Positions 3,559-34,020 of a stretch of 64,000 nt of DNA are shown here, piece after piece. Within the stretch, counting starts at the first letter, position 1, and every line of letters begins with the position of its first letter. A program made the position numbers and the translations under genes. The notes under the pieces were generated by a model that did not search any database, was not told where the DNA came from, and saw only the letters and a program-made list of their open reading frames with translations. The stretch is from Papaver somniferum (lineage: Eukaryota > Streptophyta > Magnoliopsida > Ranunculales > Papaveraceae), in contig NC_039362.1 of NCBI RefSeq assembly GCF_003573695.1, positions 172,431,690-172,495,689 of the forward strand, in the 5' to 3' direction.

Positions 3559-3863
3559 TGTGTTATAATCAAAACAATTGTGTACTCCTTATAGAAGATG
3601 TTAATCCAGATGATTCAGTCATCGGAAGGATAATTCACTATGAATTAATTAGTTCCAAATGAGACTGAATCAAATGATTAACGCCTTTTGATTTTGGTAA
3701 TCTACTTACTTTCAATATTCCGGTGGCGGTATCACGATCCTGGGTTGTGGAAATCTGTTTCATCAGACAGACCTCAGTTGGAGTAGTAGAAGGCTGTATT
3801 TGAAAACGTTGGTAGTAATACAAATGATGTGACTGAAAAGATGTTTGGATTTCAATCACCAAT

Positions 3864-3935
3864 GTGGCTGTAGTTTAGTGGTAAGAATTCCACGTTGTGG
3901 CCGTGGAGACCTGGGCTCGAATCCCAGCAGCCATA
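3864..3935 (+). tRNA. tRNA-His (anticodon GTG), copy 1
   Basis: A 72-base tRNA that folds fully. The acceptor stem is GTGGCTG/CAGCCAT, with the last pair G-T. The anticodon stem is CCACG/CGTGG around loop TTGTGGC, with anticodon GTG at 3897-3899, and the T arm holds GGGCTCGAATCCC. There is no intron and CCA is not encoded. It is identical to copy 2 at 32355-32426 except for T instead of C at the end of the acceptor stem. The shared upstream words TTCARTCACCAAT show that the two loci are duplicates. The Mutator-like element lies 40 bases downstream. Confidence 0.95.
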
Positions 3936-3974
3936 TGAATTTTTTTTGCCCTTCCAGTTTTCTTGATTTTGTGA

Positions 3975-3982
3975 ATTCTTTA
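3975..3982 (+). repeat. left target-site duplication of the Mutator-like element
   Basis: ATTCTTTA directly precedes the left terminal inverted repeat and recurs exactly at 11120-11127 after the right one. It would extend to 9 bases with one mismatch (A versus G in front). The sequence occurs once, within GTGAATTCTTTAAGC, at the probable empty site near 32741. Confidence 0.85.
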
Positions 3983-4022
3983 CCTCGCGTTTTTAGGGGC
4001 CACTCAAAAAGATTTAGGGCCA
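3983..4022 (+). repeat. left terminal inverted repeat
   Basis: Begins CCTCGCGTTTTTAGGGGCC and ends GATTTAGGGCCA. It matches the reverse complement of 11079-11119 with one substitution (A/G) and a one-base G indel. Confidence 0.9.
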
Positions 4023-4307
4023 ACAATAAAACAAAAAAGGTCATCCAAAAGGAAAATGTAGCCAGCCCTTATCTCGCGTGATTCGTAATGGCAAAATTAC
4101 CCTTATATATTCGGAGGATATGATAACATTGTTATCCTCCGATTGTAATCGGAAGCCAAAATATTACCCAGACTCCCGATTGTAGTTGGTGCAGTATTAG
4201 AATGATTTCTGTTTCATTTTTTCCATTTCTTTTTCATTTTTGAGTTGTTAGAGTTATAGAGAAGAATGTGAAGGAAAAAAGGGAAAACCCATTTCATCAC
4301 TACAAAA

Positions 4308-5722
4308 ATGGATGGATATGAAGAAGAAGGTGAGAATCATGGCGAAGAAAAAAATGTTGAGGGTTCACGACCGTTTAGAGAAGACGATTTGGGGTATATG
4401 TTGAATGATCCAAACTTTTGTGGAGAGGAAAACCTAGACGACGCTTTCATGGAAGAAAATGGAGAATCGCCTGATATTAAAACACAGGTATTGTGTTAAG
4501 AAACTCAAATACTCGATTTTCATGCGTTTGTGTGCTTTTGTAAACAAGAAAAACCGATTATTGCATGCATTGAATGCCATGAACTATCCAGATTCGGTAG
4601 ATAATTTCTCGAATAAACTTACGAATATAACACACTGAGTACCAAATATGTATATTCGGTAGTTCCAAGATATTAGTTTACTGCCGAATATGAGAAAAAA
4701 CCCCAAACTGGTTTTCCAAAAAAATCTACATTCGGTAGTTATGTAAAGTTATTTACCCCCGAATGGCCCCAAAAACGAATTCCTCAAAAATTTTCAAAAC
4801 TCAGTATTCTTATCCTTTACAATCGGTAATAGTTTAACAATATTTGACTGCCGAATATAACAGTGGCCTCAAAATAAAATTTCCGAAAACTTGAAATTCG
4901 GATGTTTATCGATTAAAGTTATCTCCCGGTTATTTATATTCGGCTGTTTTACTATATATTTTAGCTTCCGATTATATCATTTTTTGCACACAGTAAACCG
5001 TGTACATTCATTTGCATAAATCGGGTGTTTTGGATAACCGATAGGATTCCAAATATAGTATATTCGGCAGTTTGACTTATTTAATAACCTCCGATTATTG
5101 TATAATAATTTGTTGCTTTCATATGCAGGCCATTGAAGAGTTTGTTGATGATTTCTATTTGAGGCCCGACACTTCCCTATACTATGCAAACGATTTGGTA
5201 TACTCATTACTACTTTTTTTTTCAAAATTTATATGTTAAATGGTTATGCTTATTAGATTTGTTTTGTTTTGTGCAAGTTTAGACATTTGGAAGTAAGAAG
5301 GAGGCAAAGGAATGGCTTATGAAAAAGGAAAAAGATAACATGTGCGTGGTATTTCAAAATAATCATGTTAGTGACACTCGATTTGAAATGATTTGCGAGC
5401 GAGGTGGGACGCGAAAGAGTCACGAGGGAAAGAATAGTAAGTACGTACGGAATACGAATAGGAAATACCGAAGCAATACCAAGAAGATGGGATGCCCATT
5501 TAAGATTGTCTTCTATAAGACCGAGGTATTAAAGGTAAAGAGTATAAAATGTATAAAGTTGATAACGGTTGTCAAAACCATGATGATCCGTTGGATTTAA
5601 TTGGACATGTAATGGTTGCCAAGTTAAAACCACATCAAATGCAGACGGTGAGGTCTATGCGGATCCAAAAAGCGAGTGCGATCTTAAGTAAAATAATCAG
5701 TAATCGGAATATTAATCAGTAA
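4308..5722 (+). pseudogene. FAR1-like DNA-binding protein of MULE origin, frameshifted
   Basis: Three exons can be read: 4308-4487 (60 aa, acidic, starts MDGYEEEGENHG), 5129-5197 (23 aa, EEFVDDFYLRP) and 5283-5722, with GT-AG introns. Exon 3 carries the zinc-binding FAR1-like domain found at the N-terminus of MULE transposases: TFGSKKEAKEWLMKKEKDN, then FEMICERGG, KKMGCPFKI, and finally NGCQNHDDP with ending LIGHVMVAKLKPHQ. The Cys, Cys, Cys and His positions are all visible. Between KTE and GKEYKMYKVDN, near 5526, the frame shifts by one base. The product would be about 230 aa and stops at 5720 without any DDE transposase domain. The first intron (640 bases) is packed with the inverted-pair motif. 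Confidence 0.7.
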
Positions 5723-5839
5723 TCGGAACAACAGTATTATAACACTTCAATCCGATTAATCATATTCGGGAATTCCATATTTTATCAAACCGCCGATTAA
5801 TATTAAAAATTTGAATTTACAGCACTCAAACATCACATG

Positions 5840-6359
5840 TTATTCTTTTTTCCCAGTCCGAGATGCAACAATCAATGCGGCTTCGAAATGTAGAAACGAC
5901 TCTCCTCTCCACTTGGAATAAGCATCTTGTGCCGCAAACATGTCGTCTCTGTGCCTAGCAAGAATACGGTTGTACTCGGTGCACCCTTGAAGAAACATGG
6001 GATGGTTCATAATTGTGGCGTGGCTTCTTGTACTTACCAACAAAAGGACCCAATGAAACGTTAATCCAAAATATACGATCGTCCTGCTGTTCTTTGGGTA
6101 GATCTTTCACAATGTAATAATTTTTTATCCATTCGGTCTCTTCCTCAACTTGTTTTAATCTTTCTCTATGATGGAATTGTTCTTCACCTCGCTTCTTAGC
6201 CTTGATTTCCTCTTCCTCCTCCTTCGTTGCCACTAACGATGGTTTAATTTTTTTGGGTTGTTTGTTCCTTTTTTGTATTTCTTCTTCCATTGTTGCAATT
6301 GATGTAGTTGTTCGCTTGCATCTTCGAAGTATGTTGTCGATTGATGATGAACTTGCCAT
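5840..6359 (-). pseudogene. unknown charged protein in the Mutator-like element, frameshifted
   Basis: The start ATG is at 6359, and a TATA-like CTATATAAG lies about 60 bases upstream (near 6417-6426). The N-terminal part is serine-rich, then strongly charged and coiled-coil-like (EEEIQKRNKQPKKIKPS, EEEEEIKAKKRGEEQ), followed by DRIFWINVSLGPFVG. The frame then shifts by one base near 6045 and continues HATIMNHPMFLQGCTEYNR and DDMFAAQDAYSKWRGE to a stop at 5840. I do not recognise the family; the C-terminal half resembles transposon-associated proteins with a short helical tail, but this is not secure. About 172 aa if the frame is treated as continuous. It is convergent with the FAR1-like gene, leaving about 120 bases between them. 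Confidence 0.5.
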
Positions 6360-6560
6360 TGAAAATGTTTTTCATTCTAATTTTTTACTCAATAATAACT
6401 GAGAGGGGTTACCCTCCTTATATAGATTAGAGTTCCAACGGCTCTAATTTTTGAAAATATGGCCGTTGAGGTTTCTGAAAATATGGCCGTTGAAGTTTCG
6501 TACCAATGATGCACTACAATCGGTTGTTAACGATACACGTATTCCCTCCGAATAAAACAT

Positions 6561-7320
6561 TCGGAGGATAATTTTTTTTCTAAAGTTCCGAATGAACGAT
6601 GGCCCAAAAATCAGAATTTGGGAAAAACTGATACTTTTCAAATTTTGAACTTCAAATAATCGGAAGGTAACTCAGTTACCAGAACTTCCGAATATGGGGT
6701 GTCTAACCTTCTATATTGGCCCTTGGAACCACCTAGAGCCATGGCATGGTTTGTTTTGAACTTGTAATATTCGGAGGATAATTTTTTTTGTAAAAATCTG
6801 AATGAACGATGGCCCAAAAATCAGAATTTGGGAAAAACTGATACTTTTCAAATTTTGAACTTCAAATAATCGGAAGGTAACTCAGTTACCAGAACTTCCG
6901 AATATGGGGTGTCTAACCTTCTATATTGGCCCTTGGAACCACCTAGAGCCATGGCATGGTTTGTTTTGAACTTGTAATATTCGAAGGATAATTTTTTTTG
7001 TAAAGTTCCGAATGAACGATGGCCCAAAAATCAGAATTTGGGAAAAACTGATACTTTTTAAATTTTGAACTTCAAATAATCGGAAGTTAACTCAGTTACC
7101 AGAACTTCCGAATATGGGGTGTTTAACCTTCTATATTGGCCCTTGGAACCACCTAGAGCCATGACATTGTTTGTTTTGAACTTGTAATATTCGGAGGATA
7201 ATTTTTTTTGTAAAGTTCCGAATGAACGATGGCCCAAAAATCAGAATTTGGGAAAAACTGATACTTTTTAAATTTTGAACTTCAAATAATCGGAAGTTAA
7301 CTCAGTTACCAAAATTTTCG
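6561..7320. repeat. 210-bp tandem repeat, 3.6 copies
   Basis: Units start TCGGAGGATAATTTTTTTT at 6561, 6771, 6981 (with TCGAAGG) and 7191, an exact 210-base period; the fourth copy is partial. Each unit contains GATGGCCCAAAAATCAG, an inverted-pair motif around GGTAACTCAGTTACC, and CCTAGAGCCATG. The first copy differs most at its left edge. It lies between the unknown gene and the 3' end of the PMD gene, inside the Mutator-like element. Confidence 0.9.
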
Positions 7321-7458
7321 AATACCACACAAATCATTGTCATTTGAACTTGTCTAACTTAGTTACCAAAATTTTCGAATGTACCACACAAATCACTGTC
7401 ATTTGAACTTGTCTAACTTAGTTACCAAAATTTTCGAATGTACCACACAAATCATTGT
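7306..7458. repeat. short tandem repeat of about 58 bp, three copies
   Basis: TTACCAAAATTTTCGAAT recurs at 7306, 7363 and 7422, followed by CCACACAAATCA and GTCATTTGAACTTGTCTAAC. It grows out of the last 210-bp unit and runs up to the PMD stop codon. Confidence 0.85.
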
Positions 7459-7461
7459 TAT

Positions 7462-10400
7462 TTATCTGCTCTTCTTTACTTTACGACCGTGACTACCTCC
7501 AAGTCCTGCACGACCACGGGTTTGAGCACCTTCAGTTGGAGCAGCTTCAGCGCTCGATGAAGCTCGAGTTCTTTTACCCGTCTTTGATACTGCCACCTTG
7601 GGCTGATGCCTCTTCGTGACTTTCTCCTCAAACTGGGCAGCATAATCTTCATTATCCATATTATCAACTAGATCTCTAGCCTCTTTGATCTTCTCAGGTG
7701 GCATGAGATCTCCGCTATTCAGGCATGCAGTTAACATTTTGGAAACACGCTTGATCTTATTCACCTGTTTTTTATACGTAATGACATAACATCAAACGGT
7801 AATTACCTAAGATTTATAGGAATAATATAAAATGAACAAAAATATAAGAACACGCACCAGTTTATCATAACCAGCTGGTTTGTCTTTGATGATACAATTA
7901 TAACTTGAACCCGCCGCAGTAGTGTTGGATTTGATTTCACGGATAACCAAAGGATGTGATACCTTGTTATACCAACTCATATAGTCTGGAGAATTTTCAT
8001 CACCTCGGGTGGTTCGTCTACCAGTGTCGATAATGAAGTCATTACTCTTATCCCAGTTATCAAGAACAGTAGGTGGGCCTGTGCGAACAATCGTGAGATT
8101 ATCACCACTAAAAGAGCACAACTCCAACTCCAATTTGTAGTAATCCCCCATTTTCTCCACAGGTTGCTGTTGTATAGAGGTGGATCATTTCCTAACGAAT
8201 ATGCGTCATTTGGAGTTCAGTAACCTATAGTTTTTCTGGCCTGTATATTCGGTTCTAATATCAAAAGAATAGTTCCGATTGTATATAATCGGAAAAAAAA
8301 AGTAAGTACCTAACCACCGAATACCAAACATTCGAAAATAGAGATGGATAATTTCCTACCGAATATGCGTCATTTGGAGTTCAGTAACCTATAGCTTTTC
8401 TGGCCTGTATATTCGGTTCTAATATCAAAAGAATATTTCCGATTGTATATAATCGGAAAACAAAGTAAGTACCTAACCACCGAATAACCAACATTCGGGA
8501 AAAGAGATGGATAATTCCTACCAAATATGCGTCATTTGGAGTTATGGATATGCATCATATGTATTGTCTACTGAATAACTATAGAGTGAGTTATAGAGTT
8601 AAAGAAAAAACCTGCAATAGAGCCACATTCCCGGCAACTTGGCAGGTTCCTAGCCTCGAAGCCTTTCTCAACTCTTCCATCAAGAATGCTAGGCATGTCG
8701 TTCCCCAAGAATAGTCACCGACTTCATGGAGAGGATCCAAAAGTTGTATAAGGTTGGCGTCGATCCGGTTGCCAGAAGTATTGGGGAATATGACACATCC
8801 CAATACACAAAGGAGATATGCGGTGGCGGCGTGGTTCACTTGCTCATCAGTTAACGTTCCATTCTTTTCCTTCTCCAAGGTGCCTCGAAACATATTCATC
8901 AAAGCTGTAATGTTGATCTGTCTTGTTCTGTAACTTGCATGCCTCCTAAACTCTGCTGTTGTTGTCTCTTCATCCCAACCTAAGCACTTTTTAGTTAGAG
9001 CATAAAGTTGTGCCCAACTTAACTGCTTTGTGTAGTTAAACTTCACAGCTGTGCCTTGGTCGGGAAGGTTAAGAATCTGCACAACATCATTCGGAGTAAT
9101 CGTCATCTCCCTAAACGGCATATGAAAAGTATCGGTCTCAGGATACATTCTCTCCATGAACGCCGATATGGCCACACGAGTTGGCAACAATTGACTTGAA
9201 CCTTTCACATTCACCGGATAAAGGCCACGCAAGCATTTTTGTTGGTGCGGCGGTAGGTTTGAGTAGACGGACCGCATCTTGATGATCCTATTAAAGTACA
9301 TAAAAAAATCCTTAATACAAATATTACGATATAACACATAGACAATACATTAATAAAAAATAGTAATTTTATTACCTCGGTTTCGTATATTTCTCTGGCC
9401 CATGAGTCTTTGTATCCAAATAGCAATTTTCCTCCATCCGTCGGTAGCCCAAGGATTGTGCCTGCATGAATACCCTTCTTCTTCAAGTGCTGAGGGACAA
9501 GATGTGATGCTTTCTTAGTAATATCCTTCTTTACATCATCTTTTCCTTTTTTGGCTTTTTGGGTACCACTTGGTTGTCCTTCTTCTTCTACTCTTGGCAC
9601 TGGATCAACTGGTTCAATTTCATGGTGGGGTGTAACTTGTGGAACAGTTGGTTCTGCACTTTGTTGAGCGGCTTGTTCAACACTTGGTTGCACCCCTTGT
9701 TCACTGCCTTGTTGTTCTACACTTTGTTCAGCACTTGGTTGCACTCCTTGTTGACTGCTTCGTTCTTGTAAGCTTTGTTGAGCACTTGAATTATCTTTGG
9801 CGCTCCTTTCCCTCCTAGCACTAGCTGTCACTTTCTTCCTCCTTTCTCGACTTTGTCTAAACAACAAAGAAAGGAACAATATTTACAAACTATACAATCG
9901 GAAGACAAAGTATGGAAATATAACCCGAATGAACACATTCGGAAGTAAAAAGACACATATTGTTCCCGAATACAAAACAATCGAAATATAACTAAACATG
10001 TTTACAACCGAATATGCATCAATTGGAGTTCAGAAGCTGTAAATTTTTCATCCTACACAATCGGAAGACAAAGTGCACATCTACAACCCGAATGTACAAA
10101 TTCACAAGTAAGAAGACACATATTTTTTCCGAATGAAAAACAATCGGAATATAACTAAACATGTTTACAACCGAATATTCATCAACTGGAGTTCAGAAAC
10201 TCTAAAATTTTATCCTACACAATCGGAGGTATAAAACATTATATTGTCTTCCGAATAAATACTGGCCCCAAAATGAGATTTTTCTTATATCAGAAATTTT
10301 GAGATTTTTTCAATATATACATTCGGTAGTGAGTGTTCTTCCGAATACTCTGTGTCTACTTATTCGGTAGCCAAAAAATTCATTAAACTACCGATTATTA

Positions 10401-10839
10401 GCAGTTTGTATCCAGGAAGATATGGCCACCAATATTCGGCAGATAATCATCAAATCTTTCTCCCGAATACTGTCGATGTTCTTGAGAAATGAAGAACACG
10501 ACTACATTCGGAAGTAAATGAGCATGAATATCGTCCGAATCTGGATAAATAACCGAAAACCCTAAAAAAAAAATTCTCGATTCGACGAATTAAAGCGAAA
10601 TAAACACCAAAAATGATAGATTCTTACCTAATTGGGGCCATTTGAAGTTGACGAAGTGTTTGACTATCGGAATCGCCACCACCGACTACATTGTCGGGTA
10701 CTTGTTCTTCGCGTTCTTCGCGTTCTTCTTCATTTGCAGCAAGAATTTCTTTATTTCTTGCTAAAATCCCAATCTTTGGATCGATACCCCGAGCAACATT
10801 TTTGGTTCTAGGTCTGTGGGTTTCATTTCCCTTATCCAT
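7462..10839 (-). CDS. plant mobile domain (PMD, aminotransferase-like) protein, 656 aa
   Basis: Five exons join in frame: 10839-10628, 9856-9376, 9277-8612, 8166-7858 and 7764-7462, all with GT-AG introns. Residues 1-70 are charged. Residues 71-190 are Q/S/E-rich with imperfect repeats (QQGVQPSAEQS, SEQGVQPSVEQA). Residues 215-231 hold LLFGYKDSWAREIYETE. The PMD core fills exon 3 (CLRGLYPVN, FHMPFREMTITPNDVVQIL, VGDYSWGTTCLAFLMEELR) and exon 4 (SPDYMSWYNKVSHPL). The C-terminus is basic (GRKVKKSR), a likely nuclear signal. PMD proteins include MAIN/MAIL-type factors in gene silencing and meristem maintenance, and many transposon-borne copies; which role applies here is unknown. A segment usual between exons 3 and 4 (the WA..R region) seems missing, and intron 3 holds tandem repeats instead. 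The exon 3 start at ATG 9277 was chosen because it keeps the frame. Confidence 0.75.
8181..8565. repeat. 164-bp tandem repeat in PMD intron 3
   Basis: Units start at TGGATMATTTCCTA: 8181, 8345 and 8508 (partial). Each contains ATATGCGTCATTTGGAGTTC, an inverted pair CGGTTC...TTCCGATT and ATAATCGGAAA. The sequence CGTCATTTGGAGTTCAGTAA resembles the intron 1 repeat at 9896-10260, so the two arrays share ancestry. Confidence 0.85.
9896..10260. repeat. about 165-bp tandem repeat in PMD intron 1
   Basis: AATCGGAAGACAAAGT starts at 9896 and 10061, and a third partial copy starts AATCGGAGG near 10220. Each unit holds two 35-base inverted pairs and the line ACATGTTTACAACCGAATAT. It overlaps the inverted-pair array. 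Confidence 0.85.
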
Positions 10840-11078
10840 TGTTTTATAAACGAATCGACGATGTTTTGATTTTACGATTCGCGGCGATGTTTCGGTTGAA
10901 CGAGGAAAGTTTTTTTTCTTCCACAATCGGAAGATATGAAGCTGGAAGAAGAAGAGTTGAAATGAGTAGAATTTTTTTTGATTTGGTTTTTCTACGGTTT
11001 TACCAGAAGGGCATTTATGTAACTTCAATATCATATAGGGTACCCCTTAACTAGAGTCTTTGGATGGGTATAAATTGA

Positions 11079-11119
11079 TGGCCCCTAAATCCTTTTGAGT
11101 GGCCCCTAAAAACGCGAGG
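11079..11119 (-). repeat. right terminal inverted repeat
   Basis: Reads TGGCCCCTAAATCC through to AAAAACGCGAGG, the reverse complement of the left end. Confidence 0.9.
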
Positions 11120-11127
11120 ATTCTTTA
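11120..11127 (+). repeat. right target-site duplication of the Mutator-like element
   Basis: ATTCTTTA, identical to 3975-3982. The next bases, AGCCAATGCAGC...TCTAGCCA, resemble AGCTACCAAAGC...TCTAGCCA at 32753 after the empty site. Confidence 0.85.
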
Positions 11128-32103: not shown

Positions 32104-32354
32104 AAGTTCAAAATAGGTTCATCCCTTACGTAGTAGAACGCTCAAGTCTGTATTTGAAAAGATTGATAGGGCTATTCTGTTCTAATCTTAACTTTTTATT
32201 TTGTCAATTTGTGTACTGAGCACTTTATACCCCAAAAACCACACCTTGGTGCGTCAGGTTAATTTGTTCTCCACTTCAAAAGATTTTGTGCAAGAGCGCA
32301 TCATTCCCGTCTAAACTCTAACTAAAAAGGTTTTTGGAGATTTCAGTCACCAAT

Positions 32355-32426
32355 GTGGCTGTAGTTTAGTGGTAAGAATTCCACGTTGTGGCCGTGGAGA
32401 CCTGGGCTCGAATCCCAGCAGCCACA
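32355..32426 (+). tRNA. tRNA-His (anticodon GTG), copy 2
   Basis: 72 bases, acceptor stem GTGGCTG/CAGCCAC fully paired, anticodon GTG at 32388-32390 in loop TTGTGGC, T arm GGGCTCGAATCCC. A T run follows at 32430-32442, suitable as a Pol III terminator. The upstream flank matches copy 1. Confidence 0.96.
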
Positions 32427-34020
32427 TTAATTTTTTTTTTTTTGCACTTCCATTTTTTGTTTTTTCCTCATTTCAGCTGCCAAAAGGAAGCTAATGGCAA
32501 ACTTTTCATCAGATAAAGATTTTGATCGGTATCAAAAAGATCGACCATAAAAAAAGAGAGAGGTGCGCAATCATGGTACATGGAGTGAACTCTCTGAACA
32601 ATGGATTTTTTTTTTTATCATGGTCATGGAACAACAAAACCATGAGACCTTTTGAAGTATGATGAGATCGAGCATTTAATGAAGTTGGCGTCCAAAATTA
32701 GAACTCCGGCAATAACATTACTCATGCATAATACTAATAGGTGAATTCTTTAAGCTACCAAAGCATAATACCGTCTAGCCATTTTTAGTCAGCATTTAAT
32801 GAAGTTGTATTCATTCAGTTAAAGATTACCAAAGGCTATTCATTCAGTTCTGAATCCATTCCAGTTTGTTTTGAGAGGAAATATCATCATGCTTCAAGCT
32901 TGAGTTGGCCTGCAAATGGTGGGAAGGCCAATACGTACCCTGGAATCCATGAAATTAGTTGAACAGCCTAAGAAATCTTCTCAAAAGCTTCTTCTTCTTC
33001 TTAGGAGTGTATGTCTGAAGTATTTCAGATTCTGTTGAGTTATGTTTTCGGATGTGTGAAGAAGAAGAAAAAGAAACACAAAGTTCGACCAGAAAAGAAG
33101 TGATGAAGAAGAAGAAAAAGAATCAGAGTAGAAAAGAAGTGACGAAGAAGAAGAGTAAGAACTAATAAATGAATCTCAATGGGCTGGACATCAATTAACT
33201 AATAAATGAATCTCAAAGAAACACCTCAATGTCGCGCACTTTTTTTTGGGGCACATAGACAAGTACAGTAGCTAGGTAGCCTAGTAGTATGGTGATTTTT
33301 CATCAATTAACCCGTCCATCATCCTTTATAACCCCCCCCCCCCCCCCCCCCCCAACCCCCCGATTCCCACCAATGAACTTTACATTCCTCCACATTTAAT
33401 TGACAAATAATTCTGCAAAAATGGTGTTAACCTTCTCTGACATGCTTGTGCTTAATTAGCGTATGACTAGCATGATCTGCTGCTATGTTGTGTATATGTT
33501 CAATGTTGTTGTGCTCCCAAGACATATGCTGCTAGTAGTTAGTGTTGTATGATATTATTGGACCAAATTCTTTAACCAATTAATACATAGCAGAACACAT
33601 CTCTGATCTCTGTAGTTTATATGATGCAACTTCATACTCTACTATAACTGCAAGGAGATTTCTCTCATAGGTCCAGTCAAACATCAAAAAGACAGATCGT
33701 ACCACCTACAATATCTAATTATGTCTAACCAAACACGCCTCCATCTTCTATAAAAAAAGAAAACACGCCTCCATCTAGTACCTAATAGGCTAATACTTAT
33801 CTTATTACATGCTCTACACAGTCACGGACTCCAAAACCTTAAAGAAAAGAGAAAAGAAAACCCCCCATTTAATGCCGGCTCATAAATTACAATGATATGT
33901 CAATGAGGTACACAGTAAAATCTTTGGGGATATGCCCTCCACAAGAGATGGAGACATGCAAACATACTTTCCACGGTTCCACTACCTTCTTTTTAACTCG
34001 TTTGAGAGATTACCAACAAT
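32427..34020. other. intergenic with poly(C) run and GAAGAA-rich patch
   Basis: No gene seen. 33050-33160 is GAAGAAGAAAAAG-rich with a partial internal duplication (AGAAAAGAAGTGATGAAG). 33332-33353 is a run of 22 C, followed by AA and more C. Confidence 0.5.
32741..32790 (+). other. probable empty insertion site of the Mutator-like element
   Basis: GTGAATTCTTTAAGC here equals GTGA-ATTCTTTA (3971-3982) joined to AAGCC... (from 11127), with a single ATTCTTTA. The continuation GTCTAGCCA also occurs after the element at about 11145. It lies 315 bases downstream of tRNA-His copy 2; extra sequence between tRNA and site at this locus must be assumed. Confidence 0.6.

Follow-up and report, generated by a model that had tools for sequence, protein, structure and literature searches.

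To our knowledge, anti-silencing by DNA readers that a transposon itself encodes is known only from the VANDALs of Arabidopsis, which are Mutator-like elements (MULEs) without clear terminal inverted repeats (TIRs). Element-encoded binding also occurs in CACTA elements of the En/Spm type, where TnpA is paired with many short subterminal sites, some of them inverted and with a CG within the site. The available part of the report on VANC21 describes this protein as an Arabidopsis transposon anti-silencer whose bound motifs are dense in the non-coding DNA of VANDAL21 (PMC5735166). Another protein family found in MULEs is the plant mobile domain (PMD), known from rice (the first description) and, fused to the transposase, from several grasses and from Amborella; why MULEs carry it has so far been a matter of speculation, Ikeda and colleagues suggesting, in the excerpted text, that captured PMDs serve transposable element (TE) anti-silencing (PMC5418596). 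Titles and abstract openings of the papers listed in literature searches give no target for MULE-captured PMDs, and the sampled text of a 2021 review calls the PMD a domain of unknown function (PMC8616336). Here we describe an element at positions 3983 to 11119 of a 64,000-bp stretch of opium poppy (Papaver somniferum) DNA (NC_039362.1, positions 172,431,690 to 172,495,689, on contig C5 of our scan; “the window”), classed as a defective MULE, which holds a PMD gene and carries an array of inverted AWTCGG..CCGAWT pairs in its non-coding DNA.

The poppy element and VANDAL21 each have three genes and a short motif that is densely placed in the introns, the spacers and the non-coding DNA of the termini but not in the exons, and that has multiplied through tandem repeats; moreover, the proteins of both systems have tandem peptide repeats in variable regions, and in both systems related families keep the plan and alter the motif (PMC5735166, as excerpted). 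An earlier note on this DNA, which knew of no such tiling in a MULE, was therefore wrong in kind, given the density of VANC21 motifs in non-coding VANDAL21 DNA (PMC5735166). However, the poppy pairs are inverted and of fixed spacing, whereas the VANDAL21 motifs described there, YAGTATTAY, stand in one orientation and unpaired, and the poppy core, AWTCGG, is a different one. In contrast to VANC, the poppy protein is a PMD by Pfam, with DUF1985 below threshold only, and its anti-silencing role is a prediction. The poppy element also has TIRs, unlike the VANDALs. With CACTA En/Spm elements it shares many short sites with a CG inside, some inversion and an element-encoded protein; yet its pairs are distributed over the non-coding DNA between 4109 and 10540, at a distance from the TIRs, while the CACTA sites are subterminal. 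Compared with the MULE-captured PMDs described in the accessible part of PMC5418596, the poppy PMD stands as a gene of its own in a eudicot genome and has a candidate target in cis. An element-encoded reader combined with motif-rich non-coding DNA is a known kind, that of the VANDALs; new, within the literature searched, are the inverted pairs of fixed spacing, their stacking lattice, the TIR-bearing carrier, the scale, and a PMD protein with a candidate target.

Inverted pairs in the window and across the genome

An exact scan of the whole window for AWTCGG..CCGAWT with an outer length of 34 to 37 bp found 27 pairs, all inside 4109 to 10540 (34 bp, n = 2; 35 bp, n = 14; 36 bp, n = 10; 37 bp, n = 1), and no others in the ~56.9 kb that make up the rest of the window. 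The array announced in the earlier note is thus real and confined to the element, although its “at least fourteen” pairs were an undercount. Outside tandem repeats, pairs of 35 bp lie at 4147 to 4181, 4730 to 4764, 5062 to 5096, 5764 to 5798, 10362 to 10396, 10434 to 10468 and 10506 to 10540, pairs of 36 bp at 4109 to 4144, 4654 to 4689, 4821 to 4856, 4938 to 4973, 6518 to 6553 and 10221 to 10256, and the single pair of 37 bp at 5721 to 5757. The others were assigned by tandem-repeat analysis to copies of three repeats: a 210-bp unit (35 bp at 6559 to 6593 and 7189 to 7223; 36 bp at 6658 to 6693, 6868 to 6903 and 7078 to 7113), a 164-bp unit (34 bp at 8247 to 8280 and 8411 to 8444; 35 bp at 8451 to 8485; 36 bp at 8287 to 8322) and a 163-bp unit (all 35 bp, at 9896 to 9930, 9937 to 9971, 10059 to 10093 and 10142 to 10176). 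These units raise the pair count, so that copies of longer repeats, which the note had considered as an explanation, do account for part of it; but when pairs more than 75% alike were collapsed, 20 independent ones (<75% alike) remained.

The element contains 71 half-sites, compared with a mean of 8.4 and a maximum of 18 in 500 dinucleotide shuffles, and shuffled elements held on average 0.012 pairs of 34 to 37 bp. When the number of half-sites was kept and their positions were randomised, the mean was 0.70 pairs and the maximum 5 (20,000 runs). With coding segments drawn by us from splice sites and homology, 69 of the 71 half-sites and all 27 pairs fall outside them (binomial P = 2e-14), in agreement with the earlier placement of the pairs in introns and spacers and off the exons. 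To say that they fill the non-coding DNA, however, was too strong, since they cover 955 bp, or ~23% of its bases in the element. The CpG observed/expected ratio of this non-coding DNA is 1.18 and falls to 0.72 when the motifs are left out, which indicates that the motifs hold about half of its CpG.

The fixed spacing also held in the 2.715-Gb opium poppy genome, where the spacing distribution is not flat and has its peak at spacers of 22 to 24 bases (N22-24). There were 64,994 matches at N22-24 (1,075 for a reversed-pattern control), 2,743 at the six spacings N16-21 (control, 1,331) and 3,970 at the six spacings N25-30 (control, 1,628), which averages ~21,665 per spacing at the peak, ~457 below it and ~662 above it. 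Ten arbitrary 10-kb genome stretches contained no pairs. Among the off-peak matches at N25 that were listed first, a separate repeat, ATTCGGCTTATTCGA...GCGCCGAAT or near it, appears again and again (C1:487875, 13207881, 14095294 and others).

We pooled 14 array-bearing sequences of the window's type (“family-1-type”: the window, L009 to L013, L015, L029 to L034 and a sibling copy on C11), whose 213 pairs leave 35 after dereplication; the spacers of these measure 22 (n = 2), 23 (n = 19), 24 (n = 13) and 25 bases (n = 1). A second fixed gap separates consecutive pairs, which lie 5 to 7 bp apart and form doublets: among the dereplicated CCGAWT-to-AWTCGG gaps below 15 bp in 13 array sequences, 19 of 20 measure 5 to 7 bp. 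Pair and gap together give a period of ~41 bp, which would be near four turns of B-DNA.

A probable dimeric reader and its candidates

The extended consensus of the family-1 half-site is AWTCGGWAGWWA, and the two arms of a pair vary largely independently. The variable second base (W) is alike in both arms in 8 of the 20 window pairs (10.4 expected) and in 17 of the 35 family-1-type pairs (17.3 expected), and a joint arm-matching test of positions 2 and 7 to 10 in the latter gave P = 0.13 (position 9 alone, P = 0.019; position 10, P = 0.057). If the pairs were selected hairpins, the second base should match between arms; as the arms are largely independent, the pairs look like half-sites and not like selected foldbacks. 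Of the two origins named in the earlier note, a dimeric protein or a selected foldback, only the first is therefore favoured, and we are confident, short of certainty, that a dimeric DNA-binding protein reads each pair as two half-sites.

This reader is probably the PMD protein that the element encodes. DNA-bound VANC21 was the single standout fold match to its modelled structure, a resemblance predicted from the model; at the sequence level, DUF1985 reached at best 21.3 bits in Pfam, below the cut-off of 35.1, and DUF287 gave no match at E ≤ 0.1. A genome search for PF10536, the PMD family, returned at least 149 matches (best 109 scored of 22,762 candidates), from which we picked ten loci by hand, a small sample of 3 kb each. 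All six loci with split-exon PMD genes, the window's type, have arrays of 7 to 14 pairs, both MAIN-like single-exon loci have 2 pairs each, and the two other single-exon loci have none in their 3 kb. Likewise, no pairs occur in the 3 kb taken at each of five MULE transposase loci of other families, hand-picked from at least 150 listed. In these small, hand-picked samples, the arrays thus follow the PMD gene.

The same was examined from the side of the pairs in ten C1 stretches chosen for listed pairs (L009 to L018), of which L009 to L015 were translated. PMD-type frames of at least 110 amino acids (aa) were seen by eye in L010, L011, L013, L014 and L015, although the pairs of L014 lie ~3 kb from its frame and resemble the repeat of L009, another family without a PMD frame. 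No PMD frame of at least 110 aa was present in L009 or L012, where the tandem-repeated pairs occupy short stretches (L009:4749-6159 and L012:3887-5713); L012 has the family's TIRs and L009 a weak terminal match at most. Both stretches are likely non-coding derivatives, which could respond in trans. L016 to L018 hold one pair each, and L016 overlaps a copia-like region (L001) by eye.

Alternatively, the pairs could be internal sites of the MULE transposase, bound through its FAR1-like N-terminal domain and serving transposition or self-regulation, as the TnpA sites do in CACTA elements. The earlier note had regarded the FAR1-like protein encoded inside the element as the obvious ligand, and the C11 sibling fits this idea in that its transposase joins a FAR1-like start (by eye) to a MULE catalytic domain and is accompanied by 19 pairs and no PMD gene. 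However, the FAR1-like fragment corresponds to the beginning of the transposase frame of the MULE. The TIRs of the window element are free of the motif: the array begins with a pair 126 bp in from the left end and closes with a half-site that stops 189 bp short of the right end, and the sites are spread over introns and spacers and are not subterminal. Together with the arrays following the PMD gene and the five pair-free transposase loci, the latter weak evidence as they belong to other families, this makes the transposase an unlikely reader.

The PMD protein as reader can also be considered in a second family, whose element at C13283:1778136-1783298 has a PMD gene of the MAIN-like kind (36% identity to P0004) and 41-bp TIRs starting ATCCTGG (by eye); if CCTGG is taken as the start, the element is flanked at either end by the duplication ATAATGAT (by eye). 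Its 10 pairs have spacers of 22 (n = 8) or 23 bases (n = 2), and NTT follows the AATCGG of its half-site. After collapsing these pairs and the two of L038 to 6 pairs (12 arms), TT at positions 8 and 9 was found in 11 of 12 arms, as opposed to 2 of 70 family-1 arms, whereas AG was found in none of the 12 and in 33 of the 70 (Fisher P = 0.0012). If a reader and its sites co-evolve, a core and a geometry that stay constant while the extension changes would be the expected trace; the pattern parallels that of VANC21 and VANC6.

A host protein might instead read the pairs, for example a silencing complex of the MAIN/MAIL1 type, in which case the arrays would be silencing targets or decoys. The host PMD proteins MAIN and MAIL1 do act in TE silencing, according to the available text of two reports (PMC5418596, PMC7156037), and many of the PMD homologues in poppy carry a MAIN-like annotation; yet the existence of tens of thousands of sites, and of two families each with its own extension, points to a benefit to the element, and the sole motif linked to MAIN/MAIL1 in the portion of the source at hand, DOWN (CATGCAGTTT, in the MORC1 promoter), is unlike AWTCGG (PMC9899485). 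We consider this quite improbable. Still less probable is a neutral by-product, that is, one ancestral pair spread by tandem duplication and transposition with its spacing inherited: repeats of 163 to 210 bp do multiply pairs, and 213 pairs do reduce to 35, but these 35 are less than 75% alike and nevertheless keep core and length, the geometry is common to two families with different extensions, and the coding segments are spared. The least credible explanation is that the pairs are maintained as foldbacks, to form hairpin RNA or cruciform DNA and, for instance, give rise to small RNAs, because W agrees between arms only at chance and its mismatches break the stem, while the features in its favour are arms complementary by construction, arm positions 9 and 10 agreeing a little above chance, and a folding energy slightly lower than with shuffled spacers (39 dereplicated pairs; mean z = -0.63, s.e.m. 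0.29; z < -1 in 11), an excess as small as the one half-site consensus (WAG) shared by both arms would produce.

A possible anti-silencing system

Returning to the PMD protein as reader, we lean towards an anti-silencing system in which the PMD plays a part like that of VANC and the operators are dimeric. The PMD protein of this Mutator-like group would dock as a dimer on the pairs along the element's non-coding DNA and keep silent chromatin off the element as VANC does, presumably by preventing methylation, and the ~41-bp period may stack the dimers on one face of the DNA. None of the three genes of the window copy (transposase, gene 2 and PMD) is intact, and this copy would therefore act as a passive target, with PMD protein supplied by sibling copies. 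More tentatively, it is tempting to speculate that the PMD, an angiosperm domain, is homologous to VANC and binds DNA in a sequence-specific manner, acting in poppy on ~65,000 paired sites in a 41-bp lattice and desilencing its own kin, and that MAIN/MAIL are its domesticated or captured counterparts.

With a candidate cis target of rigid geometry and a predicted VANC21-like fold, the role of the PMD can be put to a binding test for which the probe already exists. If the proposed system is true, element-encoded anti-silencing readers would also exist in a distant eudicot lineage, dimer geometry would add a second layer of specificity, and there would be a suggestion of how the host silencing proteins MAIN and MAIL1 may find DNA.

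The carrier element and its siblings

The window element is bounded by a 37-bp left TIR (3983 to 4019, + strand), identical at 36 of 37 positions to the right TIR (11083 to 11119, - strand), and by an 8-bp target-site duplication, ATTCTTTA, at 3975 to 3982 and 11120 to 11127; 8 bp is the short end of the range for MULEs. As a sibling copy encodes a PF10551 transposase, the element is by its sequence a MULE, as the earlier note had it. Its transposase gene (4308 to 5695, + strand) survives as a remnant, FAR1-like by eye, that comprises two short exons at the 5' end (by eye) and ~138 of the 969 residues in the sibling's frame, split over two frames and without the catalytic domain. Gene 2 (5840 to 6371, - strand), for a small protein of no recognised family, is likewise in two frames. 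The PMD gene (7462 to 10839, - strand; PF10536, E = 5.8e-25, 88.6 bits, cut-off 34.9) has five exons, at 10839 to 10628, 9856 to 9376, ~9310 to 8612, 8166 to 7858 and 7764 to 7462; it is frameshifted near 9180 to 9200, lacks ~100 aa that L010 and L029 to L034 retain, and includes a 51-bp tandem repeat (9673 to 9788) that gives tandem peptide repeats near the N terminus.

The sibling at C11:29107462-29114179 is 87 to 95% alike to the window element in the main aligned segments. Its open 969-aa transposase frame (L041:1908-4814, + strand) matches PF10551 (E = 6e-27, 94.4 bits, cut-off 27.6) and an RNaseH-like domain of ZSWIM1-3 in Pfam; by eye, we take it to have a FAR1-like start and possibly SWIM and OTU-like parts, none of which Pfam lists, and it presumably runs on into an OTU-like protease motif, DGNCGFH, also without a Pfam match. 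Gene 2 is open there (183 aa; L041:4984-5532, - strand), had no Pfam match near the cut-off and adjoins the transposase, a position by which alone it is a possible counterpart of VANB. This copy has 19 pairs at N22-24. Among the copies examined, none had its three genes all intact, and an open transposase frame of 969 to 970 aa is common to many of the best 150 scored copies (C11:29108907, C7:75767894, C2:184448229 and others), which suggests recent activity of the family.

Elsewhere in the window, positions 1 to 2000 show a strong C-over-G skew on the + strand (-0.58), the first 1,500 bases not being simple repeats by eye. Two tRNA-His(gtg) genes lie ~28 kb apart at 3863 to 3936 and 32354 to 32427, and the left target-site duplication of the element begins 38 bp beyond the end of the first.

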